Assembly (NCBI RefSeq): GCF_023347295.1
Contig: NZ_CP094469.1
Location: 2,930,778 to 2,994,777, forward strand
Source of the DNA: Faecalibacterium sp. I3-3-33
GTDB taxonomy: Bacteria; Bacillota; Clostridia; Oscillospirales; Ruminococcaceae
Direction of reading: 5' to 3'
Length of the DNA stretch: 64,000 bases
The notes below the pieces were generated by a model. That model was given only the letters and a program-made list of their open reading frames with translations. It did no database searches and was not told the DNA's origin. The position numbers and the translations under genes are program-made. Below are positions 19,205 to 62,515 of the stretch, piece by piece. Each line of letters opens with the position of its first letter. The stretch's first letter is position 1.

Positions 19205-19325
19205 GTAGCCCCTCCCGTGAAAAGGCAATTCTGGAAAATCCGCAGATTTTCCAGAATTGCGAATTAAAAATAATTTTTCCGCTGAACATGGCCAAAGCGC
19301 ACGCGGCGGCCATTCCAAATCGTCC
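19205..19325. repeat. Family B repeat with 16-bp variable palindrome
   Basis: Constant flank CCCCTCCCGTGAAAA, then GCAATTCTGGAAAATC-CGCA-reverse complement (19225-19260), then AATAATTTTTCCGCTGAACA and a further stretch nearly identical to the right end of the element at 35623-35688. Confidence 0.8.
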
Positions 19326-19334
19326 CCCTCTCCC

Positions 19335-19364
19335 TTGCACCAAAGCCCCCGGGTGCTATATAAT
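19335..19364 (+). promoter_or_regulatory. Promoter of the small two-gene operon
   Basis: TTGCAC, 18-bp spacer, TATAAT, 29 bp before the start codon at 19394. Confidence 0.65.
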
Positions 19365-19393
19365 AAGGAAAAACATAAAGGAGGGGCTGTACC

Positions 19394-19606
19394 ATGCCGG
19401 AATACCGCGTGCTGCGCATTGACGAGCAGCTGTACGGCTGCGAGGAGCTGCCCGCCGGGCAGCCGGTGCTGTGCGATTTGACCCTGACCGATGCCGCCGG
19501 GGCTGCCCGCATTCTGTCCTACCCGGACAAGGAACTGACATGTCTTGGCATCAACGAAGGAGATACCGTCTGTCTACTGCCGGACGGCACCCTGCACAAG
19601 CTGTAA
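19394..19606 (+). CDS. Small hypothetical protein
   Basis: 70 residues, not recognised. Start ATG follows AAAGGAGG. The sequence is acidic and beta-rich in appearance (YRVLRIDEQLYGCEELP ... GDTVCLLPDGTLHKL), resembling a small OB- or SH3-like barrel, but no family can be named. Its stop codon forms part of the ribosome site of the histidine phosphatase gene, so both are translated from one mRNA. Confidence 0.7.
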   Translation: MPEYRVLRIDEQLYGCEELPAGQPVLCDLTLTDAAGAARILSYPDKELTCLGINEGDTVCLLPDGTLHKL

Positions 19607-19617
19607 GGAGTAATTTT

Positions 19618-20157
19618 ATGCACAATATCTATTTCACCCGTCACGGCGAGACGGTATGGAACGTGGAAAATAAGATCTGCGGCATGACCGACAGCCCGCT
19701 GACCGCCCGCGGGCAACAGCAGGCGCAGCAGCTGGGCAAGCTTGTCCGGGACAGCGGCCTGCGTATTGACGAAATTTTGTACTCTCCCCTCTCCCGCGCC
19801 GCCGACACCGCAAAAGCCATTGCCGCCGCAACCGGTCTGCCCGCCCGCTGCGAGCCCCGCCTGCGGGAGCAGTGCTTCGGCAAATACGAGGGCACGCCCC
19901 GGGACGGTGCGGAGTTCCGCATCTCCAAGACCCACTTTGCCGACCGCTATGTGGGCGGCGAAAGCATGATGCAGCTGGCGCAGCGCATCTACAACCTGCT
20001 GGACGAGCTGAAAGCCGACACCGGCAAGACCTATCTGCTGGTAGCGCACAACGGCATCGCCCGGGTGGTGCACTCCTATTTTTACGATATGACCAACGAG
20101 GAGTACGCCGCTGCGGGCATCAAAAACTGCCAGCTGGTGGAATACACCTTTGAATAA
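19618..20157 (+). CDS. Histidine phosphatase (phosphoglycerate mutase family)
   Basis: 179 residues. Start ATG behind TAAGGAG. The RHG signature TRHGETVWN is at residues 6-14, a second Arg-containing loop YSPLSRAADTA near 60, and the catalytic His in VAHNGIARVV near 140. It should hydrolyse phosphate esters through a phosphohistidine; targets in this broad family range from sugar phosphates to cobalamin precursors and cannot be settled here. A perfect terminator follows. Confidence 0.9.
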   Translation: MHNIYFTRHGETVWNVENKICGMTDSPLTARGQQQAQQLGKLVRDSGLRIDEILYSPLSRAADTAKAIAAATGLPARCEPRLREQCFGKYEGTPRDGAEFRISKTHFADRYVGGESMMQLAQRIYNLLDELKADTGKTYLLVAHNGIARVVHSYFYDMTNEEYAAAGIKNCQLVEYTFE

Positions 20158-20159
20158 CC

Positions 20160-20193
20160 AAGAAAGCCGCCGGGGCCCCGGCGGCTTTCTTGT
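20160..20193 (+). terminator. Terminator after the histidine phosphatase gene
   Basis: Palindrome AAGAAAGCCGCCGGGG / CCCCGGCGGCTTTCTT, also usable on the minus strand for the MATE gene at 20203. Confidence 0.85.
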
Positions 20194-20202
20194 TATGACA
20201 CG

Positions 20203-21552
20203 TCAACCATGACGGTAATGGAATTTCTGGTCTTTTGTCACGAACATATACACGCTCACCGCCAGCGCGGCCAATTCGGCGGCGGTGACAGCCAGCCACA
20301 CGCCATCAATGCCCCACAGGGCGGGCAGCAGGAGCAGCGCGGCAAGCTGGAACAGCAGGGTGCGCAGAAAAGAGATGAGAGCGCTCGTCACGCCGTCCCC
20401 CAGCGCGGTGAAGAAGGAGGACGCATACACGTTGAAGCCCATGATGAGGAAGCTCAGCGCATACAGCCGGAAGGCGCGGTTTGTCAGCGCCAGCAGCTGG
20501 GCATCGTAGCCCACAAAGATGCGCGCCACATAGGGGATGATGACCATAGATGCCGCCGTCATGGTCACAGCTACCACGGCGATGAGGCGCAGGCTCTTCT
20601 GATAGAGGTTATGCACCTCGGCGTGGTTGCGCGCGCCGTAATGGAAGCTGACGATGGGTGCGCTGCCCACCGCATAGCCCACGAACACCGCCACAAACAG
20701 GAAGGCCGCGTACATGATAACGCCGTAAGCCGCCACGCCGTTTTCGCCGGCAAGCCGCAGCAGCTGGAAATTATACAAGATATTGACCAGCGACATGGAA
20801 AGGCTTGTCATCAACTCAGAAGAGCCGTTGATGCAGGCATCCCACAGCACGCGGCCGTAAAACTGTGTTCTGCACAGGTGCAGGCGGCTGGTATTGTGGT
20901 GGTCGATAAAGTAGAACACCGGCAGCACGCCGCCCACCAATTGGCTGATGAGGGTGGCAACGGCAGCGCCCTCCACGCCCCAGTGCAGCGTGCCCACCAT
21001 CACCACGTCCAGCACCATATTGGTGCAGCCTGCACCAACGGTGAACCAGAAGCCCAGAAGCGGCTTTTCGGCGGTGACGAAAAAGCTTTGGAACATATTT
21101 TGCAGCGCAAAGGGCGGCAGCGCCAGCATCAGGATGCGCCCGTAGCGCACGGCGTAATCCAGCAGCTCGCCCTTTGCGCCCAGCAGCACGGCGACCGGCC
21201 GCAGGAACAGGATGCCCAGCACGGCCAGCACACTGACCGAGATGAGCGCTGCCAGCAGAAACATGGTAAAATAGCGGTCGGCTTTTTTCTGGTCGCCCTC
21301 GCCCAGCGTGATGCCAACGATGGCGCTGCCGCCGGTGCCCAGCATAAAGCCGACAGTGCCCAGCAGCTGCGGCAGCGGCATGATGAGGTTGACCGCCGCA
21401 AAAGCCGTTTTGCCCACAAAGTTGGAAACGCACAGGCCGTCCACGATGCCGTAGATGGAGGTGAACAGCATGGTGCCGATGCAGGGCAGCACGAACCGCA
21501 GCAGGCGGGAATAGGTAAAATGGTCGGACAATTGGATGGTTTTCTTTGGCAT
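20203..21552 (-). CDS. MATE-family efflux transporter behind a structured leader
   Basis: 449 residues. Start ATG behind AAAGGAGG. Features: LRFVLPCIGTMLFTSIYGIVDGL at the N-terminus, about twelve hydrophobic segments, GTGGSAIVGITLGEG in the first half and its repeat GYAVGSAPIVSFHYGARN in the second. This is the DinF/MepA-like branch. A strong promoter and a ~170-nt leader with a closing stem and T-run precede it, suggesting ligand-controlled transcription. The gene ends toward the convergent phosphatase operon. Confidence 0.92.
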   Translation of the reverse strand: MPKKTIQLSDHFTYSRLLRFVLPCIGTMLFTSIYGIVDGLCVSNFVGKTAFAAVNLIMPLPQLLGTVGFMLGTGGSAIVGITLGEGDQKKADRYFTMFLLAALISVSVLAVLGILFLRPVAVLLGAKGELLDYAVRYGRILMLALPPFALQNMFQSFFVTAEKPLLGFWFTVGAGCTNMVLDVVMVGTLHWGVEGAAVATLISQLVGGVLPVFYFIDHHNTSRLHLCRTQFYGRVLWDACINGSSELMTSLSMSLVNILYNFQLLRLAGENGVAAYGVIMYAAFLFVAVFVGYAVGSAPIVSFHYGARNHAEVHNLYQKSLRLIAVVAVTMTAASMVIIPYVARIFVGYDAQLLALTNRAFRLYALSFLIMGFNVYASSFFTALGDGVTSALISFLRTLLFQLAALLLLPALWGIDGVWLAVTAAELAALAVSVYMFVTKDQKFHYRHG

Positions 21553-21728
21553 AGATCCTCCTTTTCTGAGATCCGTATATGCAAAAAGGCCGGATAAGAA
21601 CCACCGTTCCGGTGCGTTCCCTCTTCTGCTGCGGCACTACGGTGCCCACAGCCTCCGGGAAGCACGAACGATGACATCTTATCCGGCCTTTCAATTACGT
21701 TGAAACAGCCCTCCGATGAGCGAAAAAC
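21553..21728 (-). promoter_or_regulatory. Structured leader / candidate riboswitch-attenuator of the MATE gene
   Basis: On the minus strand AAAGGCCGGATAAG pairs over ~100 nt with CTTATCCGGCCTTT, which runs into TTTTTG, a terminator-like closing stem. Inside, CGTTCGTGC can pair with GCACcgGAACG, and GGGCAC pairs with GTGCC. By context (MATE gene, Clostridia, terminator) the guanidine-IV (mepA motif) class is a candidate, but I could not verify its consensus here. Confidence 0.55.
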
Positions 21729-21757
21729 AGTATAGCAAAGTTTATTTTTTATGTCAA
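21729..21757 (-). promoter_or_regulatory. Promoter of the MATE gene leader
   Basis: Minus-strand TTGACA, 17-bp AT-rich spacer, TATACT, with an extended -10 TGC. Predicted start near 21722. Confidence 0.8.
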
Positions 21758-21770
21758 GCCCAGTTTTGCA

Positions 21771-24700
21771 TCACTCCCCCGCAAGGCGGACAAAGGGCGC
21801 GATGGCGTTGGCGTCGCCGTGGCGGACGATGGAGTAGGTGATATCGCAGTAGGGCTGGATGGCGGTGCTCTTTTCCACGGTGGAGATAAGCAGCACCTGC
21901 AATTGCAGGCGGCGGAACAGCTCCATCATGGGGCGGATGCGGTCGCTGGTCATCTTGCTGAAGGCCTCGTCCAGCAGCACCAGACGGATGCTGTTTTCGC
22001 TCTTCTGGTAAATTTGCAGAAGGCTTGCGCAGATGGCCACATAGAAGGGCGCCTGATTCTCGCCGCCGGAGGAATCGCGGCTGACGCGGGACAGATACGC
22101 CTGCTGCCCGGTGACCTGATTGGTCACCTTGATATCGTAGTCCAGATAGGTGCGGTAGTCCACATAGTCCGAAAGGGTGGCACCGGCGGCGGTGCGTCCC
22201 TCCTGACGGGCGCGGGTGTTCTCGTCCACGTCTGCCATGATCTTTTCCATCAGTTCGTCCACCTGACGCTCGTAGGCGGGGTCGGCGGTGGCGGCAAGGT
22301 TATCCAGAGAATCACCCTCGGTCATCTGCTGGTTGCCTTTATCCACGATGACCTGATAGAACGCCGCAAGCTGCGGGTCGCGGCTGGGTTCCAGCTCAAA
22401 GCGGTAGACTTCCTCGCCGTAGGTCAGCTGCTCCATGACCTTGTTCAGCTCCCGGAACTGCCGCCGGGCGTTGAAGATATCGTCCTTCATGCGGAACAGG
22501 ATATCCTTGCGGAAGCGGTCCTTGCAGTCCCGCTGCGCCTGCTCCAGACGGGCGGCGTAGCGCTCCAAGTCGATGCGCACAAGGCTTTCGTGCTGGGCGC
22601 GGTACTGTTCCAGCCCGGCAAGCCCCAAGGGATAATCGCAGACATAGCGCTGGTTGTAGGCTTTCTGCGCCGGTTCCAGCGTGCTGTTCAGGTAGACGGT
22701 CAGGGCATCGTCCAGCTTGGCCTGTGCCTTTTCGGCAGCCTGCGCGGCGGCGCGGGGGGACTTGTCCGGCCCGGTCAGTGCCTGCTGACGGCTGCGGGAG
22801 AGGGGCTCCACCAGCGGGTGGGCGGCAAAAAAGCTTTCTGCGGCCTGTGCGCTCTTTTCGGCGGTGTCCACCGCCTTCTGCTGCTCCGCCTCGCAGGAGG
22901 AGATCTGTTTTTCGCACACGCGCAGATCGCCGCCGGTCTGCTCCACGGCGGTGCGGGCGGCTTCCCATGCGGCCTCGCGCACCTCTTCCTCTTTATACAG
23001 CTGCTGCAAAAGCGGATTCTCGCGGCACTCGGCCAGCTTTGCGGCCTGCTTGTCCACCGCCGCGCGGGCGGCGGTCAGGGCGGCGCGGGCGTCCCACAAA
23101 GCGGCAAGCTCTTCCAGCGCAGTACCGCGCAAAAGGGTCTGGTACTGGCTGTATGCGGCTTTCAGGTTCTGCTCTGCCTGTGCGGCGGCGCGCACCTCCT
23201 CCGCAAGGGCGTTCATCTCCCCTGCCAGTGCCCCGGCGCGGGCGCGGCGGGCTTCCAGACCGATATAGCGCTGCGGGGTGCGCAGACGCTCCAACCGGAA
23301 GGGATGGTGGCGCAGAAGGTCCCGGGTGGCGCTGTCGGGGTAGTTTTCCAGCGTGTCGGGGGTGTCGCAGCAGACGATGCGGCGCAGGATGGTGTCGGCG
23401 TACTGCGCGGCAAGCGGGTTTTCGCTGGTGACCTGTGCCGCCAGACTGTCGGCGGGGGCGGTGTCGGCGCGGCGGTTGGCCTTGCGCAGCCCCGGGGTGT
23501 CCAGCAGACTGATGGGCCCCACCTTATCCTTCAGCGCCACAAAGGCGCTTTTGGCGGCGACGTAGTGGGCGGGCGGCACAAGGATATCGAACCGGCGGTC
23601 GCCCAGACAGGCTTCCACGCAGTCCTGCCAGCTCTCGTCCTCCACGTTCAGCAGCTCGCAGAAGATGCGGGCGTCCGGCTCCATGCCCCGGCTTTTCAGC
23701 TCGGCATTCACGGCGTCCCGCACCCGGGTGGCGGCGTCCCCGTGGGGGTACACCCACTTGCCGCCGGATACGGCATCCAGCTCGGCGCGTTTCTCGGTCT
23801 GCTGCCGCTGCAAGGCGGCGGTGTGCTGCCGGGCGGCAAAATAGGCTTCTTCCAGCGGCTTTTCCTGTGCGGTCAGCCAGTCGGTCAGGGCGGGCAGAGT
23901 GTCCGGGGTCAGGTCTGCCATCTTCTGTCCGGCGGCAAAGCCGCTGCGGCGCAGCACCGCCAGCAGGTTGCCGGTCTTTTCGGCGGCTTTTTCGGCGGTA
24001 TCGGCGCGGCGGGCGGCGGCATCCAATGCGGTCTGCCGGTGCGCCAGTTCCTCGCTGAGGGCATCCAGTGCGCGGCCCTCGCCGCTGGCACCGGCGGCGC
24101 TGTGGGCGGTCAGGTAGGCGCGGCGGGCTTCCGCTTCGGCGGTCTTGGCCTCGGCGTAGCGGGTGCGCAGCGTTTCCTGCTGGCGGCGTCCGGCGTCTAC
24201 CCGCTCCTGCCAGACGGCCTTTTCTCCGGCATCGGCAGCAGCCCGCGCCAGCAGGGCGGCGCCCCGGTTCACAAGGGCTTCGGTCTGTTTTTCGGTGGCT
24301 TCGCGGCCGAAACGGACGATCTCGTCCAGCGCATCGGCGCGGGTCTGGGCTTCCGCCAGCACGGCGTGGAGGTTTTCCAGCTCCAAGCGGTCGCCTTGCA
24401 AGGCTTCCAAGTCCAGCTCCGGCTGGGGCAGGATATACTGGTACAGAAACTCCCGGAAATTCGGGATCTCGTCCATGCTGGTGCCCATCTGGAACACCTC
24501 GTTGAACTTTTTGCCCAGCGGGCTGGCTGCGCGTCCGATACCCAGAGCGCGGCAGATCCTATCCCGCGCTTCGCTTGGGCTGCGGGTGTAGGAAAGCCGC
24601 CCTTCGGCGGGCTTGAAGTCCTCCTTGGCGCTGGGCGCACCGGTGCGCGGGTCGATAAAGGGCAGCTGTTCCAGCGTGATGCCGTCCTCCGAGATATACC

Positions 24701-25070
24701 ACGTCTGGTCGCCGGGGTGCAGCTCCTGCATGGGACCTTCGGACTCCACCCGCACCGCGATGACAAAGCTGGTGTGCTTTACGCTGTCCCAGAACTCCGC
24801 CCCGATATACGCCACGGTATGCCCCGGGCGGCGGTAGGCGTTTTCGCCGCGCTGCTTGGCGTGGACAGAGCCTTGCAGGGTGCGGCCGCTTTTCTTATTG
24901 CCCAGCGCATTGAAGTTGCGGTTGGTGGTCAGGCAGTAGCGGATGGCGTCCAGAATGGTGGTCTTGCCCACGGCGTTCACGCCGATCATATAGGTCAGGC
25001 GGGCGCAGTCGAAGGTGGTATTTTCAAAGTTGTGCCAGTTGATAAGCTTCAGACGCTTGAGTTCGATCAT
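21771..25070 (-). CDS. jetC: JetC / MukB-like SMC ATPase of a Wadjet-type complex
   Basis: 1099 residues. N-terminal ATPase half: MIELKRLKLINWHNFENTTF, Walker A GVNAVGKTT at 30-38. Long Ala/Glu/Arg-rich coiled coils fill most of the middle, with a hinge-like globular portion about 430-580. C-terminal half: ABC signature region SRDSSGGENQAPFY and Walker B IRLVLLDEAFSKM. Wadjet complexes (JetABC plus nuclease JetD) extrude DNA loops and cut small circular plasmids; the related MksBEF acts on chromosomes. The ATG overlaps the jetB stop by 4 bp, so translation is coupled. No jetD follows: the next gene is a MATE pump. Confidence 0.9.
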   Translation of the reverse strand: MIELKRLKLINWHNFENTTFDCARLTYMIGVNAVGKTTILDAIRYCLTTNRNFNALGNKKSGRTLQGSVHAKQRGENAYRRPGHTVAYIGAEFWDSVKHTSFVIAVRVESEGPMQELHPGDQTWYISEDGITLEQLPFIDPRTGAPSAKEDFKPAEGRLSYTRSPSEARDRICRALGIGRAASPLGKKFNEVFQMGTSMDEIPNFREFLYQYILPQPELDLEALQGDRLELENLHAVLAEAQTRADALDEIVRFGREATEKQTEALVNRGAALLARAAADAGEKAVWQERVDAGRRQQETLRTRYAEAKTAEAEARRAYLTAHSAAGASGEGRALDALSEELAHRQTALDAAARRADTAEKAAEKTGNLLAVLRRSGFAAGQKMADLTPDTLPALTDWLTAQEKPLEEAYFAARQHTAALQRQQTEKRAELDAVSGGKWVYPHGDAATRVRDAVNAELKSRGMEPDARIFCELLNVEDESWQDCVEACLGDRRFDILVPPAHYVAAKSAFVALKDKVGPISLLDTPGLRKANRRADTAPADSLAAQVTSENPLAAQYADTILRRIVCCDTPDTLENYPDSATRDLLRHHPFRLERLRTPQRYIGLEARRARAGALAGEMNALAEEVRAAAQAEQNLKAAYSQYQTLLRGTALEELAALWDARAALTAARAAVDKQAAKLAECRENPLLQQLYKEEEVREAAWEAARTAVEQTGGDLRVCEKQISSCEAEQQKAVDTAEKSAQAAESFFAAHPLVEPLSRSRQQALTGPDKSPRAAAQAAEKAQAKLDDALTVYLNSTLEPAQKAYNQRYVCDYPLGLAGLEQYRAQHESLVRIDLERYAARLEQAQRDCKDRFRKDILFRMKDDIFNARRQFRELNKVMEQLTYGEEVYRFELEPSRDPQLAAFYQVIVDKGNQQMTEGDSLDNLAATADPAYERQVDELMEKIMADVDENTRARQEGRTAAGATLSDYVDYRTYLDYDIKVTNQVTGQQAYLSRVSRDSSGGENQAPFYVAICASLLQIYQKSENSIRLVLLDEAFSKMTSDRIRPMMELFRRLQLQVLLISTVEKSTAIQPYCDITYSIVRHGDANAIAPFVRLAGE

Positions 25071-27092: not shown

Positions 27093-27128
27093 GGAAACGT
27101 CCTTTCTGTCTTGGTTCGATACCCTTTT

Positions 27129-27157
27129 ATTGTACCACAGCGGGCGGGGTTTGTCAC
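27129..27157 (-). promoter_or_regulatory. Promoter of the jetABC operon
   Basis: Minus-strand GTGACA, 17-bp spacer, TACAAT, about 37 bp upstream of the jetA start. Confidence 0.65.
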
Positions 27158-30621: not shown

Positions 30622-30640
30622 AAATATAATATGATAAAAC

Positions 30641-30681
30641 AGAGCGCCTGACACCGCAGTGTCAGGCGCTCTGTTTCTATT
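30641..30681 (+). terminator. Terminator after the C39-like gene
   Basis: CAGAGCGCCTGACAC / GTGTCAGGCGCTCTG followed by TTTCT. Usable on both strands. Confidence 0.88.
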
Positions 30682-30689: not shown

Positions 30690-31016
30690 TTAATATCCCT
30701 TCACCGAGAAGCCGCGCTCCCACGGGTCGGGCGGGATATTTTTGCTGCGGATGCCGGTGATCTGGATATAATCGCTTTTCTGGATCATGGCGAACAGAGA
30801 CATAAACTTGTCCGGGTCGCCCTGCACTTCCAGCGTCACGCTGCCGTCGTCCTCGTTCTGCACCCAGCCGGTCAGGTCAAGGGTCTGCGCGGCGTACCGC
30901 GCCCGGTAGCGGAAGCCCACCCCCTGCACCTGCCCGGTGATGATGTAGCGCCGCCGCTCCGTGCCCTCCGGCAGTGCGGGCGGGGTGCGGTCCTTTTTGG
31001 AAAGAAAATCAAACAC
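30690..31016 (-). CDS. acyP: Acylphosphatase with N-terminal extension
   Basis: 108 residues if the GTG at 31016 is used; AGGGGG lies just upstream. The acylphosphatase core starts at about residue 22: YIITGQVQGVGFRYRARYAA, with the catalytic Arg in GFRYR, and GWVQNEDDGSVTLEVQG carrying the conserved Asn. It hydrolyses acyl phosphates such as carbamoyl phosphate. The core lacks about ten residues near the C-terminal end compared with classical enzymes. The ribosome site sits inside the first hairpin of array D2, so translation may depend on that structure. Confidence 0.83.
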   Translation of the reverse strand: MFDFLSKKDRTPPALPEGTERRRYIITGQVQGVGFRYRARYAAQTLDLTGWVQNEDDGSVTLEVQGDPDKFMSLFAMIQKSDYIQITGIRSKNIPPDPWERGFSVKGY

Positions 31017-31023
31017 AGCGGTG

Positions 31024-31215
31024 TCCCCCTTCGGGGGAATGATGTACTGTGCTGCGCGCAGTATGATGTGCTTCGCAATGATGTTCCGGCTGCGCCGGAA
31101 ATGATGCAGCCGCCTGCGGCGGCAATTGTGCCGCAAGGCACACATCATTTGCCCGCAGGGCAACATCATTTCCCGCAGGGAACATCATGCCGTGCCGCAG
31201 GCACGGTGCATCATT
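31024..31215. repeat. Mini-hairpin array D2 (nine units)
   Basis: Nine short palindromes of unrelated arm sequence: TCCCCC, ACTGTGC, TGC, TTCCGGC, GCCGCC, GTGCC, TTGCCC, TTCCC and CCGTGCC, each followed by a 3-4-nt GCA/TGC-type loop and its complement. The spacer is AATGATGT in the left half and ACATCATT in the right half, so the array inverts at about 31125. It fills the gap between the acylphosphatase start and the ppaC stop. Confidence 0.85.
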
Positions 31216-35402: not shown

Positions 35403-35688
35403 GACGATTTGAAATGCCCTCCGCGCTGCTCTGGGCATAATTCAAGGAAAAATTATTTTTATTTTGGCTTCCAAAAAGTCTGCGGACTTTTTGGAAGCCT
35501 TTTTTCACGCGAAAGCCCCTCTTGGGAAAGTTTTCTGGTCCAGTTGGAAAACTGGCGTTTTTCTTTACGACCCCAACTGTGAAAAAGTGGCTCAGAAACG
35601 CCCGCAGGCGTTTCTGAGCCACAAATTATAATAATAATTTTTCCGCTGAACATGGCCAAAGCGCACGCGGCGGCCATTCAAAATCGTC
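35403..35688. mobile_element. Family B element with inverted ends and two variable palindromes
   Basis: The ends GACGATTT...GGAAAAATTATT are inverted copies (35403-35465 and 35623-35688). Inside lie palindromes GGCTTCCAAAAAGTC-TGCG (35466-35499) and GTGGCTCAGAAACGCC-CGCA (35587-35622), each with exact reverse-complement arms. The right end overlaps the gluQ stop codon. No transposase, so a non-autonomous element. Confidence 0.75.
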
Positions 35689-53370: not shown

Positions 53371-53532
53371 CGCAGTCGTGCCCGCCGGTTTCCCCGTCCG
53401 ACAGGCACCTTGGCTTCTAGTATAACACATCCAAATTGCTTTTTGAACCATCTGGAGCGTTTTTGGGCTGGATTTTTAACTTTTGAGGTCAGAAAAGTGG
53501 AAAAGCCGCACGATTCTGGGTTGCAAACAAAC

Positions 53533-53744
53533 AATTTGGAATGCCCTCCGTTTCACTCTGGGCATATTCAGCGGAAAAATTATTTTTAATTTCGCGTTTG
53601 TCGCGCTCTGCGGAGCGCTCCAAACGCTATTTTCACGAGAGGGGTCATAGAGAAAAACGGCATTTGCAGCGCCGCTTTCTGCGAAAGCGCGGCGCTGCGG
53701 GCGGGTGCCCGCTCCCCCTTGGGGGAGCTGTCGCGTAGCGACTG
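53533..53744. repeat. Family B repeat plus hairpin and family A unit
   Basis: GGAATGCCCTCC...GGGCATATTCAGCGGAAAAA flank, then an imperfect palindrome GCGTTTGtcGCGCTC-TGCG-GAGCGCtcCAAACGC (53594-53627), then GGGTCATAGAGAAAAACGGC, a hairpin GCAGCGCCGC/GCGGCGCTGC (53668-53700) and a family A unit (stem GTCGCgtaGCGAC). Confidence 0.75.
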
Positions 53745-54780: not shown

Positions 54781-54814
54781 GATGCTGCCCCTTTCCTGTG
54801 AAATAAACATTCGG

Positions 54815-54847
54815 TTTTTCCACATTTCTCCGGGAAATCGTGGAAAA
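54815..54847. promoter_or_regulatory. Noc-box-like and DnaA-box-like palindrome upstream of noc
   Basis: ATTTCTCCGGGAAAT (54824-54838) resembles the Noc site ATTTCCCGGGAAAT with one extra base. It lies between TTTTTCCACA and CGTGGAAAA, both similar to DnaA boxes. Confidence 0.4.
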
Positions 54848-54934
54848 CCTGTTCAGCTTCAGTGTAGCACACAAAGAAAGACCCCGCCAGAAATTTCGTT
54901 CGGCAGGGTCTTACAGGTTGCGTCAAATTATGCG

Positions 54935-55642: not shown

Positions 55643-55705
55643 AGTGTTTTCCTTTCTGTCAGGTGGTTGGGGTAGCGCAATCGTTTGTTTTATCGCAACT
55701 TCGTA

Positions 55706-57580
55706 TTATTTTTGTTGTTTCCCTGCCAGTGCGATGCTCAGCTGCGCCACATCGGAGGGTGAAACGCCGGGGATGCGCCCCGCCTGCCCCAGATTGCGGG
55801 GACGGATGCGGGCAAGCTTTTCCCGGGCTTCCAGCGTCAGGCCGGTCAGGGCGGCGTACTCAAAATCCTCCGGGATGAGAGTTTTTTCGTGGCGTGCCAC
55901 CTCCCGGATCATCCTGTCCTGCCGGGCAATGTAACCGGCGTACTTGATCTCGGTTTCCAGCCGCTCCGCCAGCATGGGGGTGATCTCCTCTCCCCAGCCG
56001 ATGATGCCCGCCACCAGCGGGTAGCTGATCTCGGGACGGCGCAGCAGCTCCTCGGCAATGCCGCCCTCGGCGGCGGGGGCAAGACCGGCAGCTTCCATGG
56101 CGGCGCGCAGGTCTGCGGTGCGCAGATGCGTCTCGTGCAGGCGGCGGCGCTCGGCTTCCAAAATGTTCTGGGTGTGCTGGTACTTTGCCCAGCGGTCATC
56201 CTGCACAAGGCCGTATTCCCTGCCGATGGGGGTCAGGCGCTGGTCGGCGTTGTCCTGCCGCAGGGTCAGCCGGTACTCGCTGCGGCTGGTCATCATGCGG
56301 TAGGGGTCCATGACGCCCTTGGTCACAAGGTCGTCCACCAGCGTGCCCAGATAGCTGGTGTGCCGGGGCAGCACAAGCTGCTCCTTGCCCAGCGCGTTGC
56401 GGGCGGCGTTCAGACCCGCCAGCAGACCCTGCGCGGCGGCTTCCTCGTAGCCGGAGGTGCCGTTGAACTGCCCTGCCCCGTACAGACCCCGCACCACCTT
56501 GCTTTCCAGCGTGGCTTCCAGACTGGTGGGGTCTACGCAGTCGTACTCGATGGCGTAGGCGGGGCGCATGATCTCCAGATGTTCAAAGCCCTTGATGCTG
56601 TGGTAGAAGGCGTTCTGCACGTCCTCCGGCAGGCTGCTGGATGCGCCCTGCAGATACATTTCCTCGGTGTTCTCGCCGCAGGGCTCGACAAACAGCGGGT
56701 GGCGGTCTTTGCCGGAGAATCGCACCACCTTGTCCTCAATGGAGGGGCAGTAGCGCGGGCCGACACCCTCGATCATGCCGCCGTACAGCGGGCTGCGCTG
56801 GATGTTGTCCAGAATGATCTTGTGGGTCTCCGGGTTCGTGTAGGCGATCCAGCATTCCACCTTGTTGTGCATGGGTGCATCGGTCAGAAAGCTGAAGGGC
56901 TGCAATTCGCTGTCCGGGTCGCCGGGCTGGCATTCCAGCTTGGAAAAATCAATGCTGCGGCGGTGCACCCGGGCAGGGGTGCCGGTCTTGAACCGGCGCA
57001 GCGGCAGACCGGCGGCTTTCAGGCTGTCGGTCAGGGCGTTGGCGGCGTGCATGCCATCCGGGCCGGAGGCATACCACGCATCGCCCACGAATATTTTGCC
57101 GCCGAGGTTCGTACCGGTGGCAAGCACCACGCACTTGGCGGTGTATTCGCCGTGCAGCTGGGTGACAACGCCCTTCACATGGCCGTTTTCCACTTCCAGC
57201 GCCACCACCTCGGCCTGATGGATAGCCAGACCCGGGGTCTGTTCCAGCGCGTGCTTCATGTATTCGTTGTAGCGGCGGCGGTCGGTCTGCACCCGCAGTG
57301 CGTGGACGGCGGGGCCTTTGCCCTTGTTCAGCATCCGGCTTTGCAGATAAGTGGCGTCTGCCGCCAGACCCATCACGCCGCCCAGCGCGTCCACCTCCCG
57401 CACCAGCGTGCCCTTGGCGGTGCCGCCGATGCTGGGGTTACAGGGCATATTGCCGATGGCGTCCAGACTCATGGTAAAGACAGCCGTTTTTGCGCCCAGC
57501 ACAGCAGCTGCGTGGGCGGCTTCGATGCCCGCATGACCGGCGCCGATGACGATGACATCATAATCTCCTAAGTGGTTCAT
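55706..57580 (-). CDS. mnmG: tRNA uridine-34 carboxymethylaminomethyl enzyme MnmG
   Basis: 624 residues. N-terminus YDVIVIGAGHAGIEAAHAAA (FAD dinucleotide-binding), NPSIGGTAKG, and VLATGTNLGGKIFVGD; C-terminal GidA domain with the helical tRNA-binding tail. With MnmE it installs the cmnm5 group on wobble U34. It lies 35 bp after mnmE on the same strand. Confidence 0.97.
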   Translation of the reverse strand: MNHLGDYDVIVIGAGHAGIEAAHAAAVLGAKTAVFTMSLDAIGNMPCNPSIGGTAKGTLVREVDALGGVMGLAADATYLQSRMLNKGKGPAVHALRVQTDRRRYNEYMKHALEQTPGLAIHQAEVVALEVENGHVKGVVTQLHGEYTAKCVVLATGTNLGGKIFVGDAWYASGPDGMHAANALTDSLKAAGLPLRRFKTGTPARVHRRSIDFSKLECQPGDPDSELQPFSFLTDAPMHNKVECWIAYTNPETHKIILDNIQRSPLYGGMIEGVGPRYCPSIEDKVVRFSGKDRHPLFVEPCGENTEEMYLQGASSSLPEDVQNAFYHSIKGFEHLEIMRPAYAIEYDCVDPTSLEATLESKVVRGLYGAGQFNGTSGYEEAAAQGLLAGLNAARNALGKEQLVLPRHTSYLGTLVDDLVTKGVMDPYRMMTSRSEYRLTLRQDNADQRLTPIGREYGLVQDDRWAKYQHTQNILEAERRRLHETHLRTADLRAAMEAAGLAPAAEGGIAEELLRRPEISYPLVAGIIGWGEEITPMLAERLETEIKYAGYIARQDRMIREVARHEKTLIPEDFEYAALTGLTLEAREKLARIRPRNLGQAGRIPGVSPSDVAQLSIALAGKQQK

Positions 57581-57615
57581 ATACTTTCGGGTTTCCTCTA
57601 ATCAATGATTTGAAT

Positions 57616-58986
57616 TTATTTCCCCACGCAGAACCGCTCGAACACCTGTTCGATGACGGCTTCCGAGGCGTTTTCGCCGGTCAGGTCGCAGAGGGCATCC
57701 AGTGCGTCGTCCACGCAGACCGAGACGGCGTCCAGCCCAAAGCCGCCGGCGGCGGCATCCAGTGCACCGGCTACGGCGTCCCGGGCGCGGAGGGCGGCGG
57801 AAAGCTGCCGCTGCCCGGACAGGCTGGCGGCGTGGGGGTCGATGCTGCCGGTGCCCAGCAGCCGCGCCACCGCAGCGGCGATGACCTTGCGGCTCCCCTC
57901 TTCCCGGCAGCAGACCGGCAGCACCATGGCAAAATACGGGGCGATGAGCTCTGCATCAAACCGGGTGGGCTTGTCCTCCTTGTTCACAAGGGCAATGGCG
58001 GGACGGCCGGCGCAGCGCTGCGCCAGCGCCAAGTCCTCCCGGCTGGGCGGCTCGGAGCCATCAAAGACGGCGAGAATCAGCCCGGCTTCTTCCAGTTTTT
58101 TCCAGCTGCGGCGGATGCCCTCGGCTTCGATGGCGTCCTCGGTCTCCCGCAGACCGGCGGTGTCGAAAAGGTTCAGCCGGATATCCCCCAGCTGCACCGC
58201 CTGCTCCACCACATCGCGGGTGGTGCCCGCCACCGGGGTGACGATGGCGCGGTCGAACCCAGCCAGCAGATTGAGCAAGGTAGACTTGCCCGCGTTGGGG
58301 CGTCCCACGATGGCGCAGTCCACGCCCTCGCGCAGCACCGCACCGGCATCGTAGCTGCGGATGAGGGCGTCCAGTTCCTCCCGCACTGCGCCCAGCACGG
58401 TGCGCAGATGGGCGGGGTCCAGCTCCGGCACATCCTCCTCCGGGAAGTCCACCCAAGCGGCCAGATGCGCCTGCAGGGCGGTCAGCTGGGCTTTCTGGGC
58501 GTTGATCTTTTTCGCCAGTGCGCCGCCCAGCGCGGCGTTAGCCAGTGCCGCCCCCTGCCGCCCGTCCGCCGCGATCAAATCCATGACCGCCTCCGCCTGC
58601 GTCAGACCCAGCTTGCCGTTCAGAAAGGCGCGGCGAGTGTACTCGCCGGGGGCGGCAGGCTGCGCACCGGCGGCAAGACAGGCTTCCACCAGCCGCCGCG
58701 CTACTGCACTGCCGCCGTGACAGGAAAGCTCCACCACGTCCTCGCCGGTATAGCTGTGGGGCGCGCGGAAAAACAGGGCGACGCCCTCGTCAAAGGCTTC
58801 TTCCCTGTCCACAAAATGTCCGAACAGCGCGGTGTAGCCCTTGGCCTCTTCCACCTTTTTTGCCGGGTTTGCCGGGTGGAATACCCGGGCAGCCACGGCG
58901 TAGCTCTCTGCGCCGGACAGGCGCACCACGGCAATGCCGCCCGCCCCGGGGGGCGTTGCAATGGCGGCAATGGTCGATCCCTGCAT
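57616..58986 (-). CDS. mnmE: tRNA modification GTPase MnmE
   Basis: 456 residues. N-terminal tetrahydrofolate-binding domain (MQGSTIAAIATPPGAGGIAV), G-domain inserted in the helical part: GRPNAGKSTLLNLL (G1), DTAGLRETEDAIE (G3), NKED (G4). The C-terminal CVGK matches the catalytic CxGK motif. Start ATG with GGAT region upstream. Works with MnmG on tRNA wobble uridine. First gene of the mnmE-mnmG-rsmG-noc run. Confidence 0.97.
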   Translation of the reverse strand: MQGSTIAAIATPPGAGGIAVVRLSGAESYAVAARVFHPANPAKKVEEAKGYTALFGHFVDREEAFDEGVALFFRAPHSYTGEDVVELSCHGGSAVARRLVEACLAAGAQPAAPGEYTRRAFLNGKLGLTQAEAVMDLIAADGRQGAALANAALGGALAKKINAQKAQLTALQAHLAAWVDFPEEDVPELDPAHLRTVLGAVREELDALIRSYDAGAVLREGVDCAIVGRPNAGKSTLLNLLAGFDRAIVTPVAGTTRDVVEQAVQLGDIRLNLFDTAGLRETEDAIEAEGIRRSWKKLEEAGLILAVFDGSEPPSREDLALAQRCAGRPAIALVNKEDKPTRFDAELIAPYFAMVLPVCCREEGSRKVIAAAVARLLGTGSIDPHAASLSGQRQLSAALRARDAVAGALDAAAGGFGLDAVSVCVDDALDALCDLTGENASEAVIEQVFERFCVGK

Positions 58987-59407
58987 ACTGCATCCTTTCC
59001 GCGCACCCGTCTTGCGGGTGCGCTACTCGTGTGCCCGCTGCGGCAGACCCGCCGCAGCGCACACTTTCTGATTTTACAGCTTATTTTACCACGTTTTTGC
59101 GCAAAAAGATACACCCGCCGCGCGGTTTTTCCACATCTTCCAAAATGTTTGTGGAAAAAGAGATCGAAAATGGCGGGCGATGGGGAGCCTTTCTGCCTGC
59201 CAGCAGCGTGCAGGGACGCTCCGCTGGGCCAGAGGCAGGGAGGGGTGTTCCGACTCCCCCCTCCCTACCTCTGGACTCCACCCACCCCGCAACGGGCCAA
59301 GGGCTACACGCCCTTGACAATCCTAAAGAAGAAGTCGAAGCACAAAAAAGCTAGCGCTGCGCCAGTCGGCGCTATCGCTTTAACGCTTTTTTCGCTTCTC
59401 CATCCAT
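58987..59407. other. Intergenic region upstream of mnmE
   Basis: 421 bp with no gene. It holds a GTGCGC...GCGCAC-type hairpin near 59015-59060 and an inverted pair TTTTTCCACA (59126) / TGTGGAAAAA (59150), resembling DnaA boxes, then a GC-rich stretch. The TATTTTACC at 59085 region may be part of the mnmE promoter. Confidence 0.5.
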
Positions 59408-59543
59408 AGCCCCTCAGTCGCTGCGCGACAGCTCCCCCAAGGGGGAGCGGGCACGCCCGCAAGCTTTGCACTTGAGCCGCAAACTTTCCCCCTATGCCAA
59501 AGGCTCCCCGGGGGGAGCTGTCGCGCGTAGCGAGACTGAGGGG
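59408..59543. mobile_element. MITE-like repeat, family A (paired units)
   Basis: Left unit CCCCTCAGTCGCtgcGCGACAGCTCCCCC, right unit GGCTCCCC...GGGGAGCTGTCGCG...GACTGAGGGG in inverted orientation, around a ~50-bp core. Confidence 0.65.
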
Positions 59544-59740
59544 CTTCAGATCGGCGGAGCCGGAAAAAACGGTTAAAAGATCTTCACGCCGAACAGGCGT
59601 GAATCTTCAGTTTTTTCCGGTGTAGCCCTCCTCTTTGGGGTTAAAAGGGGCGAGTAGCCCCTTTTTCGTGGCTCCAGCGCGTCGAAATCGCTGGTACTTT
59701 TCTGGTTCTCTTTTGGTGTCAAAAGAGAACATCCCTCGGC
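59544..59740. repeat. Family C structured repeat, copy C2
   Basis: Differs from C1 at only a few positions over ~200 bp. The minus-strand frame at 59607-59732 reads MFSFDTKREPEK...LLAPFNPKEEG...GKN. Confidence 0.75.
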
Positions 59741-59761
59741 GTGCGCCTACAATACCAAAAA

Positions 59762-59794
59762 GAGCCCCGCACTTCCGGTGGAAATGCGGGGCGC
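59762..59794 (-). terminator. Terminator of the jag operon
   Basis: Minus-strand GCCCCGCAT...GTGCGGGGC stem followed by TCTTTTTGG. Confidence 0.8.
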
Positions 59795-59821
59795 TGCATG
59801 GTTTTATTGGATACGGCAGCG

Positions 59822-60982
59822 TTACAACTCGATCTTGCCGAAGCTGAAATCTGCAAAGTCGTCCACGCGCTCGGTGCGCTTGGGTGCTACGGGTGCTGCG
59901 CTCTCGGCGTCGCGGGGGGCGTAGGTGCGCTCCGGCACACTGGACGGACGCGGGCCGCGGGGTGCACCGCTGCGGCTGCCACGGTAGCCGCCGTTGCGGT
60001 TGCCGTTGTCGCTGCGGCGCTCTCCGCGATAACCGCCGTTGCGGTTGCCGCCGGGACGACGGCCATTCCGGTTGCCGCCACGGCCACGGCGCTCGCCGTA
60101 GGTGTTCTCGGTCTGGGCATCCGGTGCGGTGGAGTAGATGACCACGCGGCGGTCACGGCCCTCGCCCTTGCTCTCGCTGCGCACACCCTCCATCTTGCTG
60201 ATGGCAGAGTGGATGATGCGGCGCTCGTAGGGGTTCATGGGCTCCATGGCAAAGCTGCGGCCGGTCTTGCGCACCTTGGCGCCAATGCGCTGTGCCAGTG
60301 CAGTCAGGTCGCTCTCGCGCTTGTCGCGGTAGCCGGCAACGTCCAGACCCAGCTTGATGTAATCGCCCTCCAGACGGTTTGCCACAAGGCTTGCCAGATA
60401 GGACAGGCTTTCCATGGTCTCGCCGCGGCGGCCAATGAGGGCGCCCAGCTTTTCACCGTCCAGACGGATGATGGTGGCTTCGCCCTTCTGCACGGCGCTG
60501 AAGGTCACATTCTCCACGCCCATCAGGGTGATGACCTCCCGCAGATAGTCCACGGCGGCCTTCACCTTGGCGTTCTCCTCGATGACGATGGGCTCTTCCA
60601 CCTCTTCTGCCTCCTCGGCAGTCTCGGCGGGCTGCTGGGCAGCGGGGGTCTGCTCTGCGGCGGGAGCGGCGGGCTCCTCCACAGCAGCGGGAGCCTGCTC
60701 TGCCACGGGGGCAGTCTCCTGCACGGGGGCGGCAGTCTCAACCGGCTGCTCTGCCACAACCTCCACCGGCTTTGCGGGTGCAGCGGCGGGAGCATCCGGC
60801 TCTTCCACGCTCACGCGCACCTTGGCGGGGGTGGTCTTTAAACCCAGAAAACCGGTCTTCTGAGGCATTTCCAGCACTTCATAGCTGACATTCAGATCGT
60901 CGGCCTGCACGCCCAGCAGGGCGCAGGCTTTGGCGCGGGCTTCGTCCACCGTCTTGCCGGTGGATTCCTGTGTACGGATCAT
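59822..60982 (-). CDS. khpB: RNA-binding protein KhpB/Jag with an RG-rich tail
   Basis: 386 residues, longer than usual. Jag_N at 1-52 (MIRTQESTGKTVDEARAKAC), a Pro/Ala/Glu linker to about 130, a KH domain (GVENVTFSAVQKGEATIIRL, IGRRGETMESL) and an R3H domain (NPYERRIIHSAI, the RxxxH motif). From about 290 on, the tail is rich in Arg, Gly and Asn (RRGRGGNRNGRRPGG, ERRSDNGNRNGG), like RGG boxes of eukaryotic RNA-binding proteins. It binds RNA and affects cell elongation in relatives. It follows yidC, the usual order. Confidence 0.9.
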   Translation of the reverse strand: MIRTQESTGKTVDEARAKACALLGVQADDLNVSYEVLEMPQKTGFLGLKTTPAKVRVSVEEPDAPAAAPAKPVEVVAEQPVETAAPVQETAPVAEQAPAAVEEPAAPAAEQTPAAQQPAETAEEAEEVEEPIVIEENAKVKAAVDYLREVITLMGVENVTFSAVQKGEATIIRLDGEKLGALIGRRGETMESLSYLASLVANRLEGDYIKLGLDVAGYRDKRESDLTALAQRIGAKVRKTGRSFAMEPMNPYERRIIHSAISKMEGVRSESKGEGRDRRVVIYSTAPDAQTENTYGERRGRGGNRNGRRPGGNRNGGYRGERRSDNGNRNGGYRGSRSGAPRGPRPSSVPERTYAPRDAESAAPVAPKRTERVDDFADFSFGKIEL

Positions 60983-61000
60983 AACCGTTTACCTCCCTTG

Positions 61001-62074
61001 TTACTGTTTATCCTGCTTGTCAAGCTCGCTCAGCGGCACGGTGCGCTCGTCCTTGTAGCGCTCGGCGTCCAGCTGACGGGCATACTCCAGCCGGCGCTTG
61101 TTCATCTCGCTGGCGGAAAGGTTCTTCTCCATGGTCTTGCCGGTCTTGGGGTCGGTGACCTGAATGGTGGTGTTCTTCACACCGCGCTTTTCCTGCTTGC
61201 GCTTGGCGGCGATCTCGGCTTCCACATCCTTGCGCATCTTCTCAGGGTCGTAGAACTTGCGCATGATCTGGGTCTGGACGGTCATAACGATGTTGGAAAT
61301 GACGTAGTACAGAGAGAATGCCAGAGGGAAGGTAAAGCAGAAGAACAGGTACATCAGCGGCATCATGTACATGGTCAGCTTCATGCTGCCCTGCATCTGC
61401 TGGCCGGAAGCCTTCATGCTGATGTGGGTGGACAGGAACATAGTGATGACCGACAGCAGCGGCAGCACGATATCCAGAGACAGACCGATCTGCGGGATGC
61501 GGGTCAGGTCGATGCCAAGGAAGTTCATGTGCTGGCCGAACTCGGTGATGGTAGCGATCTGCTCGACGCTGAAGCAGCCCAGCACGCCGCTGTTGCCTGC
61601 CAGTACCTCGGCGATGATGTTGGTATCGCGGGTAATGGCGGTAAAGGAGATGCCGGCGGCAGTCATAGCCTCGCCTGCGCTGGCCAGTGCAGCAGCGCTG
61701 ATGTGGAAGATACGCTCCAGCGGGTTATATACCACGCCGATAACACCGAACATGACAAGGAAATTCAGCAGCATGGGCACGCAGCCGGCCGTGGGCTTAT
61801 AGCCAAAGTCCTGCTGCAGCTTCATCAGCTCTTCCTGCTGCTTTTCGGGCTTATCCTTGTACTTAGTCTGGATCTCCGCGATCATGGGCTGGAACGCAGA
61901 CATTTTTGCCATGCTCTTCTGCTGGCTGGTCTGCAGGGGGATCTTGACGATGTTGATGAGCAGGGTGAAGAGGATGATGTCCCAGCCGTAGTTCGGCAGC
62001 AGCTTGTAGATCCACTCCATGACATAGCCGAGAGGACCGCTCAGGATGTAAAAGAAGTTCATACCTTTGTCCAT
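61001..62074 (-). CDS. yidC: Membrane protein insertase YidC/SpoIIIJ
   Basis: 357 residues. N-terminal membrane segment, then GWDIILFTLLINIVKIPLQT and the conserved core (QKSMAKMSAFQPMIAEIQTK), with the loop GCVPMLLNFLVMFG and later TFPLAFSLYYVISNIVM. The Arg typical of the hydrophilic groove is not obvious to me (Lys residues occupy IVKIPL). The C-terminal tail is highly charged (KRKQEKRG). Start at 62074; a second Met 4 codons in is possible. It inserts membrane proteins alone or with Sec. Neighbours yidD and khpB are the normal ones. Confidence 0.93.
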   Translation of the reverse strand: MDKGMNFFYILSGPLGYVMEWIYKLLPNYGWDIILFTLLINIVKIPLQTSQQKSMAKMSAFQPMIAEIQTKYKDKPEKQQEELMKLQQDFGYKPTAGCVPMLLNFLVMFGVIGVVYNPLERIFHISAAALASAGEAMTAAGISFTAITRDTNIIAEVLAGNSGVLGCFSVEQIATITEFGQHMNFLGIDLTRIPQIGLSLDIVLPLLSVITMFLSTHISMKASGQQMQGSMKLTMYMMPLMYLFFCFTFPLAFSLYYVISNIVMTVQTQIMRKFYDPEKMRKDVEAEIAAKRKQEKRGVKNTTIQVTDPKTGKTMEKNLSASEMNKRRLEYARQLDAERYKDERTVPLSELDKQDKQ

Positions 62075-62164
62075 TCTGCCCCGGCTGTGGCCCGGGACGC
62101 ATTATTTTTTTATCGTAGGACACGCCGCCCACAGTGCAGCGCGTCATAAGAAGCTTTATTATCT

Positions 62165-62515
62165 AAAATGGCCGCCGCTTTGCTCTGGCCATAAATAGCG
62201 GAAATAAAATTTTAATTTCGCAAATCGAAAAAATCTGCGGATTTTTTCGATTTGCATTTTCACCAGAGAGGGTCGTAACGAAAAACGGCATTTTCTGCTG
62301 TCGGCTGTGGCCGTCGCGCAGCGACTTCAAACCGGCGGAACACAAAAAATCCTCTAGCGCAGCGGCTTGGATTTTTTGTATGGAGCCCAACCGCTTTGGG
62401 GTTACCAGGGGCGAGCAGCCCCTGGTTCGTGCCTCCCGCGCTTCGAAAGTAGCGGGCGCTTTTCTGGTACTCTTTTGTGCGCGCAAAAGAGTACATACCC
62501 GGCGGCGATGCACTT
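62165..62515. repeat. Family B plus diverged family C repeat, copy C3
   Basis: Palindrome GCAAATCGAAAAAATC-TGCG-reverse complement (62220-62255), then GGGTCGTAACGAAAAACGGC and a family C region in which helices have changed in both arms (AAAAAATCC/GGATTTTTT; ACCAGGGGC/GCCCCTGGT; CCCGC/GCGGG; GTACTCTTTTG/CAAAAGAGTAC). Confidence 0.78.

Follow-up and report, generated by a model that had tools for sequence, protein, structure and literature searches.

The 64,000-bp stretch of the Faecalibacterium sp. I3-3-33 genome analysed here (the window) carries palindromes whose arms differ while their tips and flanks stay the same, which raises the question of how both arms of a stem can change without pairing being lost. 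A preliminary description located six of them, all of which we recovered, at 17865, 19225, 35466, 35587, 53594 and 62220. The arms, said to be of near-constant length, are perfect at 17865, 19225, 35466, 35587 and 62220 (16, 16, 15, 16 and 16 bp), whereas the 15-bp arm at 53594 contains two adjacent mismatches, which are G.A in the element orientation. The fixed CGCA/TGCG tip is confirmed as a single tip seen from opposite strands, so that the six copies share the same polarity relative to their flanks. The flanks are conserved, as proposed, across the 33 copies first aligned, their 3' conservation being in part a matter of selection because 32 of the 33 were chosen by a 3'-flank pattern. The window holds six perfect hairpins with arms of at least 13 bp and a CGCA/TGCG tip, one of which (30637) has no such flanks; this is far above chance, as simulating the window 50 times under a first-order Markov model yielded none. 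The copies that contain these palindromes are collected in the table below, in which the two starting at 35404 and 35563 form one head-to-head pair.

Table. Copies of the repeat in the window, with their hairpins and model scores.
Feature	Coordinates	Strand	Hairpins and other features	Score
Possible degenerate repeat fragment	14733..14818	+		33.3 bits, E 2.6e-6
Truncated copy	17841..17941	+	variable hairpin 17865-17900 with CGCA tip and perfect arms of 16 bp; no second hairpin	52.8 bits, E 6.4e-12
Full copy	19201..19323	+	variable hairpin 19225-19260 and second hairpin 19288-19313, with an A/T linker between them	135.6 bits
Left member of head-to-head pair	35404..35524	-	variable hairpin 35466-35499	99.1 bits
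Right member of head-to-head pair	35563..35687	+	variable hairpin 35587-35622; second hairpin 35652-35677	130 bits
Full copy	53531..53652	-	hairpin 53594-53627, tandem G.A mismatches, recurrent GCGTTTGGAGCGCTC type	122.5 bits
Full copy	62158..62279	-	variable hairpin 62220-62255, 16-bp perfect arms	110.5 bits

The palindromes are parts of one interspersed repeat of about 120 bp per unit, scattered through some gut Faecalibacterium genomes. The unit consists of CCCTCCCGTGAAAA, the variable 15-16-bp hairpin with its CGCA tip, an A/T linker and a small covarying hairpin on the 3' side, which the preliminary description had overlooked (columns 98-103 with 118-123 of alignment A1; columns 190-195 with 334-341 of alignment A2). 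Model searches, whose copy numbers are lower bounds, gave at least 150 matches in the genome of the window, compared with 35 sites for the 3'-flank pattern, and at least 142, 144 and 80 copies in three relatives, while each of the remaining 37 genomes searched had 0-4 matches. We used 147 of the 150 matches, leaving out three, and drew hairpin statistics from 137 of these 147, the other 10 having no recognisable hairpin with a four-base loop. Most copies are single, each with its own variable hairpin, and of the close neighbours 22 of 23 are head-to-head.

At the curated score, Rfam matches in the window are to rRNA and tRNA alone; seven repeat loci gave Rfam matches solely below the gathering score, and a known RNA family was rejected on this basis. 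A search for plasmid relatives gave no match, and a phage collection gave hits in 15 records, 10 of which were listed. Among the titles listed for Faecalibacterium repeats, terminators and structured RNAs in the open-licence PMC literature none concerns such a repeat, and the supplements of PMC8040213 on candidate structured RNAs of the human microbiome could hold it. In kind the repeat is a known one, REP/REPIN-like, but its free stem appears to be new, as does the family, which is apparently uncatalogued.

An examination of the variable hairpin across the genome bears on the claim that its arms are unrelated and different in every copy. The 137 copies have 94 distinct left arms, which excludes the repeated use of the same few sequences in its simple form; the arm at 19225 occurs 12 times and that at 53594 nine times. 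However, 51 of the 94 arms lie one position from another arm (14/15 nearest-neighbour identity, a level reached by 4 of 94 arms once columns were permuted), and three stepwise clusters take in 125 of the 137 copies, so that the arms cannot be called unrelated. A small set of recurring arms, which was to count against the preliminary description, is therefore half borne out. Capture of arms from local host sequence was also rejected, as the longest word shared with a copy's own flanks (+/-1.5 kb) averages 7.87, against 7.81 for the flanks of other copies. A 13-mer is shared with sequence outside the elements by 15 of 97 distinct 16-nt arms, against 5.2 expected from shuffling (maximum of 50 shuffles, 10), and this excess may represent unrecognised fragments.

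Despite this variety of arms, pairing is closely kept. Perfect hairpins make up 101 of the 137 copies and imperfect stems, the G.A type among them, the other 36; non-Watson-Crick pairs number 56 of 2055. In alignment A2 (143 copies, 26 pairs) 96.9% of cells are paired, as opposed to 70.6% after shuffling, and two-sided changes occupy 897 cells versus 235.5. The loop is CGCA in 126 of the 137 copies and is closed by C-G in 135 of 137 cells; over all collected loci in element orientation, with orthologous copies counted separately, CGCA accounts for 311 of 334 and TGCG for one. On the opposite strand the tip reads cUGCGg, a UNCG loop, which a section of PMC8794818 reports as stable solely in RNA. 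Read in the presumed RNA sense, the hairpins show no preference for G.U over A.C (24 vs 20 of 4800 cells, p 0.65), the balance being uneven by genome (13 vs 2 in G022, 8 vs 11 in the genome of the window). Other hairpins followed by a T-run, a control that is not free of chance hairpins or of element copies left unlabelled, do favour G.U (144 vs 78), but the ratio is not significantly different from that of the element hairpins (p 0.23), in which G.U is scarcer (9/1193 vs 144/2858).

The modules of the unit appear with differing degrees of linkage: in the 114 of 137 copies parsed, the outer half-arm is linked to the adjoining linker (z 5.8), whereas hairpin class is unlinked to second-hairpin type (z 0.4). 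A pseudoknot in the 3' module, with a CCGC/GCGG helix crossing the small stem, is not supported by covariation, for although 93.1% of cells are paired its four pairs show zero two-sided changes. Pairing of the element ends (ACGA...TCGT) gave no signal in a crude regex test over partly misaligned copies, with 97 matches in 456 against a shuffled mean of 99.2. A CGTC lies about nine bases beyond the second hairpin in many copies.

Orthologous sites indicate how the stems change, the relatives compared being separate species and not strains. From 131 gene-side comparisons, 32 without a hairpin and nine with an unusual loop or weak pairing were set aside, and among the 90 left the hairpin is conserved in 66 and different yet paired in 23. 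Switching of the arms as a unit, which the preliminary description had envisaged, is thus seen between species-level relatives in these 23 comparisons (17 of 67 loci), but the upstream flank mostly changes as well: its identity is at least 0.85 in 3 of 23 switched comparisons versus 37 of 66 with conserved hairpins, which points to exchange between copies. The second hairpin differs (identity <0.9) in 13 of the 23 and is the same in 10 (seven loci), as against 23 of 600 random copy pairs (p 3e-8, with some loci counted twice). In 58 conserved orthologous hairpins we counted 11 clean two-sided and 15 one-sided pair changes, so that point mutation with loss of pairing, also named beforehand as contrary evidence, does occur alongside changes that preserve it. 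Other hairpins of the same stretches have two-sided changes too (8 vs 36 one-sided; element versus control p 0.0498). At one site three genomes have A:T, A:A and T:A, and the stems drift pair by pair. Finally, the loop is inverted between loci L353 and L036, which have identical arms, nearly identical flanks and the same orientation; this single inversion suggests template switching.

Gene context, taken from the predictions of a purpose-made codon-usage gene caller, places the copies outside genes, with only 4 of 147 overlapping a predicted gene; 58 lie between convergent genes and 8 between divergent ones. Around single copies, genes pointing at the second hairpin stop at a median of 17 bp from it, and those pointing at the other side at 80 bp. 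A separate terminator intervenes between gene and single copy in 10 of 61 cases on the second-hairpin side versus 32 of 69 on the other (p 3e-4), although the shorter gap alone gives a terminator less space to fit in. Copies in tandem gene contexts show no orientation bias, with 35 genes facing the second hairpin and 40 the other side. A terminator scan on the predicted strand scored three of the six window hairpins, namely 17865 on the minus strand (16 pairs followed by TTTTTCACGG), 35466 on the plus strand and 35587 on the minus strand; those at 19225, 53594 and 62220 do not score, falling below the T-run threshold of the scan; the T-run is often just four T.

On these sequence grounds the repeat is probably an interspersed, terminator-like RNA hairpin. 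Our favoured reading, to which we assign a probability of roughly 55%, is that of a lineage-specific structured RNA repeat of Faecalibacterium, terminator-like, whose stem drifts by pairs and whose blocks are exchanged between copies. Transcripts would come in from the second-hairpin side, the order in the RNA being the second hairpin, an A/U linker, the 15-16-bp hairpin with its cUGCGg tetraloop and UUUU(U)CAC; the repeat would then most likely act in intrinsic termination or as a hairpin that marks the 3' end, and head-to-head pairs would act for both directions. With constraint limited to pairing, length and loop, the stem would drift as Watson-Crick pairs, brief mismatch states being mended by selection and, apparently at least once, by hairpin template switching, whereas hairpin blocks would be swapped between copies, probably via ectopic recombination. 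The family, its structure and covariation, the loop polarity, the placement relative to predicted genes, the orthologous pair changes and block switches and the single loop inversion are observed, whereas the RNA function, the terminator activity, the mechanism of exchange and the share of template switching are inferred. Of the two options raised beforehand, that both arms are rewritten together or that symmetry is selected with free sequence, the latter explains most of the data, namely the 311:1 loop polarity, the position after genes and the stepwise pair changes.

A less probable alternative is that the repeat is mobile DNA, a small REPIN- or MITE-like element that is non-autonomous. A perfect hairpin with a fixed tip could be the single-stranded DNA target of a transposase, in which case pairing would be selected via mobility rather than RNA function. 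The high copy number in one species next to 0-4 matches in most other searched Faecalibacterium genomes is what such an element would produce, as is the head-to-head arrangement of close neighbours, also known for REP dimers; G.T and A.C mismatches occur at similarly low frequencies (20 and 24 in 4800 cells), which DNA-level pairing predicts, and three of the six window hairpins fall short in the terminator scan. However, the Y1 transposase family PF01797 was not found in the genome of the window, while 5 of 14 control genomes were positive, and neither a clean empty site nor a duplicated target was seen in twelve comparisons (ten sites of this genome and two further). The RNA-type UNCG loop and the asymmetric placement of gene ends around the copies likewise speak against mobile DNA.

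The loop inversion, with arms unchanged, also bears on the improbable idea that a dedicated or strongly favoured rewriting process, by template switching at hairpins in replication or by intra-hairpin conversion, uses one arm to rewrite its partner and so turns the arms over symmetrically, largely without selection. A section of PMC8794818 discusses such inversions as traces of template switching, and the proportion of two-sided changes, the three-genome site and the low G.U would also agree with rewriting; but the inverted loop is found in just 1 of 312 CGCA/TGCG loops, two-sided changes occur in non-element hairpins too, some of them may be exchanges with similar copies, and imperfect stems persist. 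A further, doubtful reading is that template switching at replication mainly drives arm turnover in a high-copy hairpin family, RNA-level selection keeping the UNCG loop polarity alone. Differing orthologous hairpins could also arise if different copies had inserted independently at shared hot spots, as might be read from the altered second hairpin in 13 of the 23 switched comparisons and the altered upstream flank in 20; we regard this as highly unlikely, as the second hairpin is retained in the other 10 far above the random level and as, at site 549574, both it and the upstream flank are kept while the hairpin has changed in G003.

The family adds an apparently uncatalogued structured repeat, at 80 or more to 150 or more copies per genome, to several gut Faecalibacterium genomes, and nearly all copies are intergenic in the genome examined. 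About 150 copies of one hairpin with free stems and fixed flanks make each such genome an unusually rich natural experiment on joint change of paired bases, in which single-step selection, template switching and exchange between copies can be compared. If the terminator reading is true, a dispersed stop signal has remodelled gene ends in the carrier genomes; if template switching is the main driver, each genome would carry records, about 150 in parallel, of mutation rewriting the two arms of a palindrome at once.

Among known systems, REP/BIME sequences are described in sections of PMC3733652 and PMC1525189 as short extragenic palindromic repeats of high copy number, often dimeric, near coding regions and serving as insertion targets. 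The Faecalibacterium repeat is also extragenic, palindromic and high-copy, but REPs measure 20-40 bp and in most families carry GTAG or CGTC tags, whereas the present unit has about 120 bp, two hairpins and a main stem almost free in sequence; in the 33-copy consensus neither hairpin has one of these tags at its base, the REP families being compared by tag and length. REPINs of Pseudomonas fluorescens, according to parts of PMC3116915, have constant ends around a spacer whose length and hairpin capacity matter and in which compensatory changes are common. The resemblance lies in the constant sequences around a hairpin-forming variable part and in those compensatory changes, but the transposases to which REPINs are linked, RAYT (Y1), belong to the family that was not found in the genome of the window, and the Faecalibacterium repeat has a fixed polar tetraloop on its variable stem and, in addition, another hairpin with covariation. 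A REPIN is an inverted doublet; here close neighbours are nearly all head-to-head, but most copies are single. Among intrinsic (Rho-independent) terminators, those with UNCG loops share the stable hairpin followed by a T-run, which scores in three of the six window hairpins, the free stem sequence, the position just past stop codons and, where copies are paired, possible bidirectional use; they differ from the repeat in that it exists in at least 150 scattered copies, has conserved flanks and a second hairpin, and often has a T-run of just four T. The bcr1 repeat, whose RNA structure shows covariation, is likewise interspersed but in a different host, the likeness being by description alone. 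It belongs to the Bacillus cereus group and is listed among bacterial MITEs in a section of PMC3733652. Similar in their pattern of change are the RNA hairpins maintained by template switching that Monttinen and Loytynoja (2022) treat, in the sections concerned, through histories of rRNA genes across taxa, with two-sided changes, loop inversion and four-base loops (PMC8794818); in contrast, the Faecalibacterium case is a high-copy repeat within one genome, which allows one hairpin to be followed over many parallel lineages.

The variable palindromes belong to an interspersed repeat of about 120 bp with two hairpins, apparently a new family of interspersed structured repeats, in which the palindrome forms hairpin 1. 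A flank pattern of 22 bases with up to three mismatches allowed recovered 35 genome sites, against none for the reversed control pattern. A covariance model built from 33 element copies gave at least 150 matches in the own genome. At an E value of 0.001 or below it gave at least 142 in G003 and at least 144 in G022, and at 0.01 or below at least 80 in G009, these three being genomes of separate related species. In a 41-genome survey scoring the best 86 candidates per genome, the remaining same-genus genomes had 0-4 and more distant ones 0-1 among the matches listed. The exact 3'-module pattern matched 93 stretches of the named collection, and all 80 of those listed are from Faecalibacterium, in five genomes. 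In the phage collection, the window's element pair is matched by 15 MT83xxxx records, of which the 10 listed are short faecal contigs without annotation that carry the label Bacteriophage sp. and may be pieces of bacterial chromosome.

Across 143 aligned copies, 96.9% of 3489 cells are paired versus 70.6% after shuffling, two-sided change occurs in 897 cells versus 235.5, and covariation is present in both hairpins. A crossing helix, CCGC/GCGG, had zero two-sided changes in this alignment and is not claimed. Neighbouring elements up to 600 bp apart are head-to-head in 22 of 23 pairs, and the 5' side adjoins diverse other repeat modules.

Anatomy of the element in its CGCA-reading orientation, and coordinates of individual features
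Feature	Position	Description
Order		CCCTCCCGTGAAAA, hairpin 1, A/T linker, TTCCGCTGAA, hairpin 2, AAATCGT
Hairpin 1		15-16 bp, tip CGCA, C-G closing pair
A/T linker		about 18 bases, between hairpin 1 and TTCCGCTGAA
Hairpin 2		ATGGCC/GGCCAT or covarying variants; loop about 14 bases long
Window palindromes	17865, 19225, 35466, 35587, 53594, 62220	35466 and 35587 form one head-to-head element pair
Repeat mosaic	window 19150-19215	example of single copies joined on the 5' side to GTTTCCGNAGGAAAC...GGCAGCTGCCGTTT and TTTTGACTGAGGGAGTTCGTTCC modules
Hairpin without element flanks	window 30637-30676	perfect, 18 bp, CGCA tip, just beyond the end of an ORF on the minus strand (30690-31169); likely an ordinary terminator that shares the element's loop
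Hairpin 2 broken by another repeat starting CAACGACGACGACCGCC	own 742010 (locus L183), 2602736 (L210), 2843436 (L218)	entry at roughly one point across copies; element continues past 110-113 added bases; seems a nested repeat targeting the element
Edge of CAACGACGACGACCGCC repeat only	own 10424, 213335, 2497046, 2782790	
Distinct palindromic repeat of about 130 bases	own, near 2342490, 2626891, 2652708	on or close to the tip of the element's hairpin
Repeat of the same type	half-copies 591132, 756340, 816891, 2395625	likewise on or close to the tip
Single-pair change	2087954	A:T, A:A, T:A across the three genomes
Three different hairpins	549574	own genome, G022, G003; both adjoining modules retained in G003
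Apparent inversion in locus L227 compared with the own genome	own 2652708-2653077	hairpin and immediate flanks look inverted within surrounding orthologous sequence, adjoining loss of the partner element

Of the six window palindromes in the preliminary description, five are perfect, with arms 15-16 bp long and a tip of four bases; the one at 53594 has two adjacent mismatches. CGCA and TGCG are one tip seen from opposite strands, and no perfect hairpin with arms of at least 13 bp and either tip arose in 50 simulated windows. The preliminary description called the arms unrelated. Among the 137 of 147 own-genome copies with a recognisable hairpin there are indeed 94 distinct 15-nt arms, but 51 of these have a neighbour at 14/15 identity (4 when the columns are permuted), and groups of 64, 37 and 24 copies form three clusters. 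The arms are thus free in sequence yet related through paired changes. Perfect hairpins number 101 of 137; 56 of 2055 cells are non-Watson-Crick, 32 of them of the G.A type, which is also common among copies of the other three genomes. The hairpin type GCGTTTGGAGCGCTC (nine own copies, including window 53594) has a recurrent tandem G.A mismatch (GA opposite GA) mid-stem in an otherwise perfect stem.

In G022 and G003, where flanks are about 95% identical, 90 of 131 gene-side-anchored comparisons had a usable hairpin on both sides. The prediction that arms switch as a unit describes a minority of these: 23 comparisons (17 of 67 loci) differ at five or more pairs with pairing preserved at 13-15 of 15, whereas 66 differ at three or fewer, and one at four. 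Of the 23 switched comparisons, 10 keep the same second hairpin, against 23 of 600 pairs of copies drawn at random, and 3 keep the upstream flank; of the 66 with a conserved hairpin, 25 have an altered second hairpin and 37 retain the upstream flank. The modules therefore change partly independently of one another. Among 114 of the 137 copies, hairpin class is unlinked to second-hairpin type (z 0.4), and the hairpin is linked to its adjacent linker (z 5.8); we infer that copies exchange sequence, frequently breaking within the linker. Independent insertion may instead account for the 13 switched comparisons with differing second hairpins. Own arms are common to another copy of the same genome in 12 of 23 switched and 21 of 66 conserved comparisons, and the other genome's arms in 11 of 23 and 24 of 66 (part of that genome examined); as neither is clearly commoner at switched sites, a donor copy is not demonstrated.

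Within 58 conserved orthologous hairpins there were 15 one-sided pair changes and 11 clean two-sided ones, against 36 and 8 (7 clean) in 74 hairpins that lie in these stretches but outside the element (Fisher p 0.0498); requiring both flanks leaves 5 and 2 against 13 and 0. Two-sided change is thus a general feature of strong hairpins here; in the element it is at most moderately more frequent, and some of the element's cases may represent exchanges with similar copies.

Read in element orientation, the loop is CGCA in 311 of the 334 hairpins examined and TGCG in one, a polarity which shows that loop orientation matters. The exception (locus L353, F. prausnitzii ATCC 27768), with identical arms, nearly identical flanks and the same orientation, is a loop inversion, an event discussed in PMC8794818 as a template-switch footprint. 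On the opposite strand the loop is UGCG with C-G closure, of the UNCG class, whose members that paper, where it treats them, reports as stable only in RNA. Among 4800 cells of 320 copies from four genomes, element-strand mismatches comprise 20 G.T and 24 A.C (uneven among single genomes: own 11/8, G022 2/13, G003 4/1, G009 3/2), and an overall wobble preference is absent on both strands. Non-family hairpins followed by a T-run, a set including some chance hairpins and unlabelled element copies, gave 144 G.U and 78 A.C of 2858 by the same detection. These counts tell against slow drift via G.U states and fit poorly with RNA selection alone.

According to a home-made gene caller, 4 of 147 copies overlap a gene; the neighbouring genes are convergent at 58 copies, tandem at 75 and divergent at 8 (six unresolved). 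For single copies, genes facing the second hairpin end at a median of 17 bp (under 40 bp in 40 of 61) and those facing the other side at 80 bp (13 of 69; p 6e-8), with a separate intervening terminator in 10 of 61 versus 32 of 69. This pattern fits termination running from the second hairpin to hairpin 1. Unbiased orientation in tandem contexts (35 versus 40) and the fact that the T-run threshold of the terminator scan is passed by only three of the six hairpins in the window count against a strict orientation requirement. The element most likely acts at the RNA level, as a dispersed terminator or a 3'-end hairpin. Its stem would retain pairing, length and loop while drifting pairwise in sequence, and hairpin exchange among copies would add to this drift, producing the striking arms. 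Strict Watson-Crick pairing may be upheld by selection, by template switching or by a DNA-level role in mobility, alternatives distinguishable at strain level. Constant ends around a variable hairpin have a published precedent in REPIN spacers, as described in PMC3116915.
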